Shown here piece by piece: positions 49,693 through 52,061 of a DNA stretch of 64,000 nt. Position numbers and translations under genes: made by a program. The notes under the pieces were generated by a model. The model did not search any database and was not told the DNA's origin. It saw only the letters and a list, made by a program, of their open reading frames with translations. Source of the DNA: Luteolibacter sp. (GTDB taxonomy: Bacteria; Verrucomicrobiota; Verrucomicrobiia; Verrucomicrobiales; Akkermansiaceae). Location: contig JAUYNL010000099.1 of assembly GCA_030696085.1 (NCBI GenBank), positions 22,790 to 86,789 of the forward strand, given 5' to 3'. Numbering within the stretch: the first letter of the stretch is position 1; each line of letters opens with the position of its first letter.

Positions 49693-50559
49693 TTAGATCC
49701 GATGGGTTTCCAGCCACTTCTCGCGGCGGAACCACGTTTCCTGGCGTTTGGCATATTGGCGGGTGGCCGCATTGATAAGCTCCCCGCAGGTGACGCGGTC
49801 GATTTCTCCGGCCAAGAGAGCGCGGATCTCGCGGAAACCGATCGCTTTTTCGCAATTGGACGAGACATCCGACAGGGCGGCGACTTCCTCGATCGCGCCG
49901 CCGTCCAGCATCGCGCGGGTGCGAGCGGCGATGCGCTTGTGAAGCTCGGGACGCGGGCGCTGGATGACGATGCCGCGGAGGCCAGCGGAGATTTCCCGGG
50001 TTTTGCCCTCCCATTGGTCGCGCAATTCCGAGGCTTTCCGACCGGTGAGCAGGCAGATTTCCAATGCGCGGGAAACGAAACGCCGGTTTTGCAGCGCGGT
50101 GCGCTCGGCTTCGATGGGATCGAGTTCTTGCAGTTCCGCCACCAGGTCCTCGAGCGGGCGGGCGTCGAGTCCGGCGCGCAGCTTCGCGTCGCCGGCGGGC
50201 AGGGGCGCGGGGCCGTGGGTCAGGAATTTCAGATAGAGCCCGGAGCCGCCGGTGATGATCGGTGTCCTGCCTCGGCTTTGGATTTCTTCGATGACGGGTT
50301 TGGCGAGTCGCATGTAGATGCCGGCATCGGCGGACTCTTTTGACTCTAACACTCCGTAGAGATGGTGCGGGACAAGCGCGCGTTCTTCTAACGGCGGGGC
50401 GGCGCTGACGATTTCAAGTCCGTGGTAAAGCTGGAAGGCGTCGGCGTTGACGATCTCGCCATCGAGTTTTCCCGCCATCTCCAGCGCGAGCGCGGATTTC
50501 CCGGATGCGGTGGGGCCGCAGATGTAATAAGGAGGGGGGACACTCTTGTCCCCCATGCC
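49693..50559 (-). CDS. miaA: tRNA dimethylallyltransferase
   Basis: YICGPTASGKSALALEMA, VNADAFQLYHGLEIVSA, GGSGLYLKFL. Start approximate: the repeat-borne ATG GGG GAC AAG. Confidence 0.92.
   Translation of the reverse strand, partial: GMGDKSVPPPYYICGPTASGKSALALEMAGKLDGEIVNADAFQLYHGLEIVSAAPPLEERALVPHHLYGVLESKESADAGIYMRLAKPVIEEIQSRGRTPIITGGSGLYLKFLTHGPAPLPAGDAKLRAGLDARPLEDLVAELQELDPIEAERTALQNRRFVSRALEICLLTGRKASELRDQWEGKTREISAGLRGIVIQRPRPELHKRIAARTRAMLDGGAIEEVAALSDVSSNCEKAIGFREIRALLAGEIDRVTCGELINAATRQYAKRQETWFRREKWLETHRI
50529..50557 (-). repeat. REP-like palindromic repeat, copy 1 (inside miaA 5' end)
   Basis: Reverse complement ATGGGGGACAAGAGTGTCCCCCCTCCTTA, identical to copies 2 and 3. Confidence 0.92.
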
Positions 50560-50580
50560 TCCGGGCGCGGCGTTGATCAA

Positions 50581-50609
50581 ATGGGGGACAAGAGTGTCCC
50601 CCCTCCTTA
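50581..50609 (+). repeat. REP-like palindromic repeat, copy 2
   Basis: ATGGGGGACAAGAGTGTCCCCCCTCCTTA. Confidence 0.92.
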
Positions 50610-50658
50610 AAGCGCCATTGCTCGTTCGCTTTGCCATAGGGTGAAGAGCTGAATGAAG

Positions 50659-50687
50659 ATGGGGGACAAGAGTGTCCCCCCTCCTTA
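50659..50687 (+). repeat. REP-like palindromic repeat, copy 3 (abuts ffh stop codon)
   Basis: ATGGGGGACAAGAGTGTCCCCCCTCCTTA; its TTA is the complement of the ffh TAA stop. Confidence 0.92.
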
Positions 50688-52061
50688 AAACTTGCCGCCC
50701 ATGCCCTTCATCATGTTGCCGAGGCCGCCTGCGCCTCCCAGGCCGCCCATCTGCTTCATCATGTTCTTCATCTTGTGGGGCGACTTCATCATCTTGCGCA
50801 TCTCTCCGAACTGCTTGATGAGCTGGTTCACCTGCATGAGCGAGGTGCCGGAGCCCGCGGCGATGCGCTGGCGGCGGGAGCCCTTGATGATTTCCGGGCG
50901 GCGGCGTTCTTCGAGCGTCATCGAGAGCACGATGGCCTCGGTGCGCTTGAGCTTGCTGTTATCCAGGGCTCCGGCGGGGAGCTGCTTCTTGATCTTGCTG
51001 AAGCCCGGCATCATGCCTAACAAACCTTCGAGCGGGCCGAGGTTCCGGATCATTTTCATCTGATCGAGGAAGTCGGTGAAATCGAATTTACCCTGCTGCA
51101 TGCGCTTCATCGAGCGCATGGCGTCCTCCTCGTTCACCTTGCCGGCGACTTGCTCGACCATGCCGACGATGTCGCCCATGCCGAGGATGCGGTCGGCCAT
51201 GCGGTCCGGATGGAACTCGAAAAGCTGGTCGAGCTTCTCGCCTTCGCCGGCGTATTTGATCGGCTTGCCGGTGACGGCGCGCATCGAGAGGGCCGCGCCG
51301 CCGCGGGCGTCGCCATCGAGCTTGGTGAGGATGATTCCGGTGATGCCGACGGCGTCGTCGAAGTGTTTGGCCACGGAGACCGCCTGCTGGCCGGTGGCGG
51401 AATCGGCGACTAACAGGGTTTCCTTGGGCTTGAGAAACTCATGCAGGCGCTTGAGTTCGGCGATGAGGCGCTCGTCGATTTCCTGGCGGCCGGCGGTGTC
51501 GAAAATGAGCACGGTGCCATGTTGTTGCTCCGCCCAAACGAGGGCGTTCTTGGCGACCTTGACGACATCGGTCTCGGAAGCATCCGGAGTGTAACACGGG
51601 ACATCGACCTGTTTGGCAAGCGTGGCGAGCTGGTCGATGGCGGCGGGCCGATAGAGGTCGCAGGCGATGAGCAGCGGGCGGCGGCCTTCCTTCTTGAGAC
51701 GGCTGGCGAGCTTGGCGGAAGTGGTGGTCTTGCCCGCTCCGTTGAGGCCGCAAATGAGGATGTGCGCGGGTGGATTGAGATCGAGCGGGGCCTGGTCGCC
51801 ACCCAAGAGTTCCGCGAGTTCGTCATGGAAGATCTTGACGATCTGTTCGCCGGGCTTGATCGACTTGAGCACGTCCTCGCCCATGGATTTCTCCTTCACC
51901 CGGGCGATGAAGTCCTTGGCGATGCCGAACTCGACGTCGGCCTCCAGCAGGGCGATGCGGATCTCGCGCAGGGCGTCGGAGATGTTTTTTTCCGAGATGC
52001 GGCCGACGCCGCGGAGATTGCGGAAGGTCTTGTCGAGGCTGTCTGATAGAGAGGAGAACAT
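50685..52061 (-). CDS. ffh: Signal recognition particle protein Ffh
   Basis: ICGLNGAGKTTTSAKLA, DTAGRQEIDERLI, TKLDGDARGGAALS, C-terminal Met-rich M domain. Confidence 0.95.
   Translation of the reverse strand: MFSSLSDSLDKTFRNLRGVGRISEKNISDALREIRIALLEADVEFGIAKDFIARVKEKSMGEDVLKSIKPGEQIVKIFHDELAELLGGDQAPLDLNPPAHILICGLNGAGKTTTSAKLASRLKKEGRRPLLIACDLYRPAAIDQLATLAKQVDVPCYTPDASETDVVKVAKNALVWAEQQHGTVLIFDTAGRQEIDERLIAELKRLHEFLKPKETLLVADSATGQQAVSVAKHFDDAVGITGIILTKLDGDARGGAALSMRAVTGKPIKYAGEGEKLDQLFEFHPDRMADRILGMGDIVGMVEQVAGKVNEEDAMRSMKRMQQGKFDFTDFLDQMKMIRNLGPLEGLLGMMPGFSKIKKQLPAGALDNSKLKRTEAIVLSMTLEERRRPEIIKGSRRQRIAAGSGTSLMQVNQLIKQFGEMRKMMKSPHKMKNMMKQMGGLGGAGGLGNMMKGMGGKF

Follow-up and report, generated by a model that had tools for sequence, protein, structure and literature searches.

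Probable remains of a REPtron between ffh and miaA in an Akkermansiaceae bacterium, and the proposed start of miaA within them

What are three copies of one palindrome doing between two housekeeping genes, and where does the second of these genes begin? The question is raised by a 64,000-nt stretch of DNA (the 'window') in which ffh and miaA are neighbors on the minus strand, with the copies between and partly within them. Both genes are intact by profile: ffh (50685–52061, minus strand) scores 562.5 bits against TIGR00959, and MiaA scores 201.9 bits against TIGR00174, where the cut-off is 148.65. By comparison with relatives, the three palindromes are the remains of a REPtron between two housekeeping genes of this Akkermansiaceae bacterium. 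REPtrons are RAYT (TnpA_REP) genes flanked by REPs tagged with a tetranucleotide, GTAG (PMC8266576, PMC3733652). Our reading, to which we give a probability of roughly 0.8, is that the site is a decayed REPtron, and that miaA starts in the 3' end of the former RAYT gene and reads through the REPs.

The repeat and its relatives

Scanning the window finds three mismatch-free copies of a 29-mer—copy 1 at 50528–50556 (minus strand), copy 2 at 50581–50609 (plus) and copy 3 at 50659–50687 (plus)—while shuffled sequences give none and the chance expectation is 0.00. The initial annotation had described a 29-nt palindrome in three identical copies, and exact matching bears this out; it had placed copy 1 at 50529–50557, 1 nt off. 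Read tail first, each copy consists of TAAGGAG followed by a hairpin, GGGGGACA-CTCT-TGTCCCCC, with a stem of 8 bp and a loop of 4 nt; the tail reads on the plus strand in copy 1 and on the minus strand in copies 2 and 3. Copy 1 (the right, inverted arm) and copy 2 (the left arm) are 100% complementary, on either side of a 24-nt spacer (50557–50580, no strand), and so make up a REPIN-like arrangement, two inverse REPs with a short spacer. The initial annotation had recognized this REPIN-like pair, but gave it a core of 23 bp.

Copy 3, an exact match, marks the left edge of what was the RAYT unit; after ffh the congeners, too, have a REP in the equivalent place. Its last three bases, TTA at 50685–50687, are the minus-strand stop codon of ffh, as had been noticed at the outset. 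Ffh in the window ends GGKF-stop, and most congeners end GGKFPF-stop (window 50685–50699), such that the protein is two residues shorter where copy 3 supplies the stop. The source genome is a draft of 3.77 Mb in 110 contigs, and misassembly at identical repeats is possible.

In that genome the exact 20-bp core, like the exact 29-mer, occurs only at the ffh-miaA site. Confinement of the repeat to this locus, as the exact-core search would have it, was nevertheless rejected: freeing the outer stem bases reveals a dispersed family. Searched for in this way (GACANGAGTGTCNNNNCTCCTTA, one mismatch), the family turns up in 43 of 73 congeners, and the control gives no matches; the source genome itself holds 11 copies at no more than one mismatch and 12 at no more than two (0 control matches), and G036, G144 and G166 hold more than 100 copies each at one mismatch. 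The palindrome with at most one mismatch is present in 24 of 195 genomes, and its reversed control gives 0 matches. The initial annotation had held that limitation of the 29-mer to this locus would refute its reading; literally that limitation exists in the source genome, but the family is dispersed in both genome and genus—11 copies in the source genome, as befits a REP element—and G039 (L017), which belongs to another genus, has the identical 29-mer. A second inverted REP pair lies on C100 of the source genome.

Among the matches listed in the palindrome-only search, 38 of 41 copies have CTCC, the complement of GGAG, beside the stem; the tetranucleotide of this family is GGAG, then, not GTAG. 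The stem, too, is maintained by pairing: 111 distinct copies display paired substitutions of several Watson-Crick types in stem pairs 2–4, and slid partners pair in 31–41%. Since the copies were chosen for pairing, the evidence lies in the variety of the Watson-Crick types rather than in the pairing percentage. Tail, stem and dispersal together uphold the identification of the palindrome as a REP.

Variants of the element occur elsewhere. G137, of another genus, has 34 core palindromes (L023, L046), several of them in inverted pairs ~126 nt apart, with tails CTCCGTT or CTCCGGT, not CTCCTTA, which makes them a subfamily of the same REP. The ffh-miaA gap of G166 (L187) contains a different inverted REP pair with like tails, AAGGAG and CTCCTT, and another stem (GGGCGAT...). 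In relatives, the TAA of the REP tail ends open frames of at least 200 codons in 16 of 78 REPs, the two other frames giving 5 and 4, which is suggestive only, but hints that REPs with this tail tend to sit on gene ends, the TAA often closing a long frame. The observation also takes in three other REPs of the source genome (L316, L320 and L321).

The RAYT unit and its remnant in the gap

Six congeners (G176, G076, G194, G202, G174 and G135) have the order ffh-REP-RAYT-REP-inverted REP-miaA. The RAYT is a Y1 transposase gene of ~200 aa, part of which is masked in G202. In G176 it matches PF01797 (Y1_Tnp) at 24.5 bits, against a cut-off of 23, and its translation contains an NHIH motif; its best NCBIfam match is the REP-associated tyrosine transposase NF047646, at 58.1 bits, below the cut-off of 80. 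The Y1/HUH domain is assigned on this congener gene, the window holding 13 RAYT codons only. REPs flank the RAYT in all six units, and in most other homologs. Four of the six use the TAA of the REP tail as the RAYT stop, and two have a TGA ahead of the tail.

Those 13 codons, the last of the gene (FTLWQSERAMAL-stop), occupy 50607–50645 on the minus strand, and their stop is the TAA of REP copy 2. They are almost the same as the 3' end of the G176 RAYT (TTCACCCTATGGCAAAGCGAACGAGCACTGGCG) and also match those of the five other congeners. From the ffh stop to the P-loop of MiaA is 167 nt in the window, as against some 717; the congeners range from 591 to 719 nt (the G202 sequence is itself incomplete). 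About 550 nt of the unit are missing, and at that point stands a 12-nt stretch (50647–50658, minus strand). A complete transposase gene, and with it an intact REPtron, is absent from the site, and it is because the RAYT is reduced to its last 13 codons that we call the unit 'decayed'. The initial annotation had proposed a search for a RAYT (Y1 Tyr) transposase, and one is involved, both as the unit of the six congeners and as the 3' remnant in the window.

A cognate RAYT was also sought among the 13 Y1 matches of the source genome and rejected: the nearest is 44% identical, with none closer elsewhere in the genome, and the core palindrome is at none of their loci.

Where miaA starts

Read on the minus strand, copy 1 gives MGDKSVPPPY, in frame into YICGPTASGKS, exactly as the initial annotation had it. 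The further claim, that copy 1 supplies the start of miaA, is probably wrong, since the corresponding repeat of the congeners has no in-frame ATG, GTG or TTG, and the ATG they share is in the RAYT 3' end. Upstream of copy 1, the miaA frame of the window is open as far as an ATG at 50637 (50635–50637, minus strand) and reads MAKRTSNGALRRGDTLVPHLINAAPGGMGDKSVPPPYYICGPTASGKS. This ATG spans the RAYT Leu-Trp codons CTA TGG in a different frame, and it is kept in all six intact-unit congeners: in their miaA frame, the RAYT 3' end and the sequence up to the P-loop contain one ATG, GTG or TTG, and it is the ATG of the Leu-Trp pair (xTA TGG). Beyond it, up to the P-loop, three of the six lack ATA, ATT and CTG as well. 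The distance from ATG to P-loop varies from 102 to 120 nt, and is always a multiple of 3.

ATG, open frame and right phase occur together in 6/6 units before miaA versus 0/16 when a miaA-type frame is read through RAYT-repeat units that are not directly before miaA (p = 1.3e-5, uncorrected for relatedness; the six congeners are related, and count for less than six independent events). The RAYT Leu codon is xTA in six of six, its first base variable; elsewhere in these genes, 15 of 101 Leu codons have this form. RAYTs at the ffh-miaA site that have the ATG form one clade (support 87), next to which falls the RAYT that G141 retains adjoining ffh. The window retains the ATG, the open frame and the phase despite its remodeled repeats and spacer.

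Because the sole ATG shared by the congeners lies in the RAYT 3' end, and the window keeps it, miaA probably starts at 50637, not at 50556 in copy 1. The gene with its extension would then span 49693–50637 on the minus strand, alignment assigning codons 1 to ~36 to the extension and codon 41 to the P-loop Gly. The comparisons indicate that the start codon and the first ~36 codons lie in the last codons of the dead RAYT and in the repeats. That repeat DNA encodes the N-terminus of MiaA, the more general claim of the initial annotation, is very probable, frame and phase being kept across six congeners. The tail of copy 1 (CTCCTTA on the minus strand) adjoins the miaA codons TAC ATC TGC, and the junction is identical in the congeners. 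Comparison of miaA 5' ends among relatives had been suggested as a check: species without the unit have short MiaA starts such as MQEPFYICG and MIPEPFYICG, and carriers of the unit appear to start in the RAYT 3' end. The MiaA tree is too weakly resolved to date the insertion. In an AlphaFold2 model built from 19 sequences (mean pLDDT 66.8, modest), residues 1–36 have a pLDDT of about 30 and the first strand begins at residue 37. The repeat-encoded tail of ~36 residues is probably a tolerated, disordered extension; predicted disorder makes a new activity of MiaA unlikely.

ATG 50637 is the most likely start, and it has one serious rival, in the window's species alone: ATG 50556 (50554–50556), within copy 1, with 50557–50637 as an untranslated leader. 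This ATG exists, it is in the miaA frame—there is one further in-frame start in the window, a TTG—and no clear Shine-Dalgarno sequence precedes ATG 50637 there. The SD-like codons upstream of the RAYT-internal ATG of the congeners disappeared from the window with the body of the RAYT, and initiation could have moved to 50556 as a result. We nonetheless rate this the less probable start by some way. ATG 50556 is missing from all six congeners, being unique to the window's species; it sits within the stem of a strong hairpin, and the GGAGG ahead of it is only one base distant. The frame from 50637 to 50556, moreover, is still open and still in phase, though repeats and spacer have been remodeled.

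Might the REPs be untranslated instead, a 5' regulatory region acting as hairpin attenuator or mRNA stabilizer, with miaA starting at a rare codon near the P-loop? Many N-terminal REPs may be non-coding, translation possibly starting downstream of them, as PMC3733652 warns, and the region does fold strongly (z -8.5), with two terminator-like hairpins. We think it improbable all the same, for the congeners offer no conventional start beyond the RAYT-internal ATG, and three of them not even the rarer codons listed above; phase and open frame, too, are kept in all, unlike the units elsewhere. Weakest, and very hard to credit, is the notion that a dispersed REP inserted afresh three times at ffh-miaA in the window's species, with no connection to a lost RAYT, for while the copies are mutually identical and their stem is unlike that of the congeners, the RAYT 3' remnant, the overlap of RAYT stop and REP, and the REP/miaA junction are all at the congener positions.

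A start within the RAYT 3' end is not the sole arrangement among the relatives. G036 and G144 have the order ffh-REP-RAYT-REPIN-miaA with a different RAYT Leu codon and a miaA-frame ATG between the two arms of the REPIN; here too the frame passes through the right REP (MPPEDKSVLPPYFVCG in G036). In G127 (L191) the end of a second Y1 transposase, with the palindromic repeat GACTGCGGGGACTGACCCC, precedes miaA, and related or degraded copies of it, with this repeat or a decayed form, precede miaA in G205 (L179), G170 (L177), G141 (L180) and G105 (L236). This end supplies the ATG and first codons of miaA, in a reading of the form MNS...ICG (MNSITCETAGTDPKLFFICG in G127). The start of miaA seems, then, to have been captured by transposase ends more than once, the independence of these captures being more than the trees can prove. 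In G180 (L178), ACTCCTTATTACATC comes right after the ffh stop and is identical to the congener sequence where REP tail meets miaA; it is possibly the scar of a lost RAYT unit. The start of miaA in G180 would be a TTG that overlaps the stop codon of ffh.

A proposed history, and known systems

We infer the following course of events. The ancestor would have had the order ffh-REP-RAYT-REP/inverted REP-miaA, with the unit fused at its right end to miaA, immediately ahead of the P-loop strand. Such a junction would have replaced the ordinary start of miaA by the out-of-frame ATG in the last RAYT codons, and translation would have crossed both REPs before reaching miaA. The RAYT-internal ATG and the repeat phase would then have been preserved by selection on miaA. 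In the lineage of the window, all of the RAYT would have gone except the 13 terminal codons on which miaA depends, and local conversion would probably have made the three REPs identical.

Cross-species conservation is an argument that a core tRNA-modification enzyme takes its N-terminus from translated REPtron DNA and its start codon from the transposase gene. This bears on the retention of single-copy RAYTs in the manner of housekeeping genes. Conceivably, and we offer it as speculation, the arrangement acts as a lock: RAYT 3' end and REPs, by holding the start codon of a needed gene, could not be cleanly deleted, miaA would have had its start captured by two kinds of Y1 unit (RAYT/REP and TIRYT), and decay would leave the piece that miaA needs. 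Such a lock, if true, would help to explain the persistence of single-copy RAYT units. More practically, automatic miaA start calls in the group to which the window's species belongs may often be wrong.

Parts of this picture are already known: REPs inside genes, REP tails as stops, REPtrons, and the loss of REPtrons (PMC3733652, PMC8266576), including transposase loss by deletion in E. coli (PMC8266576, PMC3733652). In the open-licence PMC literature we found neither a description of a gene that starts within the 3' end of a RAYT nor a paper that has RAYT and miaA together. The palindromic elements of Rickettsia (RPE) are mobile palindromes read in frame within proteins, including the N-termini of expressed ones (PMC3733652); from that description, they are compared here in mode of action, and RAYT or start-codon capture is not described there. 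TIRYTs are Y1 transposases with terminal inverted repeats (PMC3733652), and the GACTGCGGGGACTGACCCC-type unit of G127 and others resembles them; it is a parallel case, not the unit of the window.

Also known are the intragenic REPs that are read as amino acids, among them those of the verrucomicrobium O. terrae, and the REP termini that form the stop of the upstream gene (PMC3733652). The window has the second feature and, on our reading, the first. It differs in that N-terminal coding is supported by frame conservation in several species, whereas PMC3733652 regarded many such cases as doubtful, and in that the start codon would come from a transposase gene. With the REPtrons themselves the unit shares a Y1 gene flanked by REP and inverted REP, a tetranucleotide directly 5' of a perfect palindrome, and dispersed REPs. 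It departs from them in having GGAG for GTAG, in a neighboring core gene whose start codon lies, on our reading, within the 3' end of the RAYT and whose frame continues across the REPs, and, in the window, in the mere 13 RAYT codons that are left.
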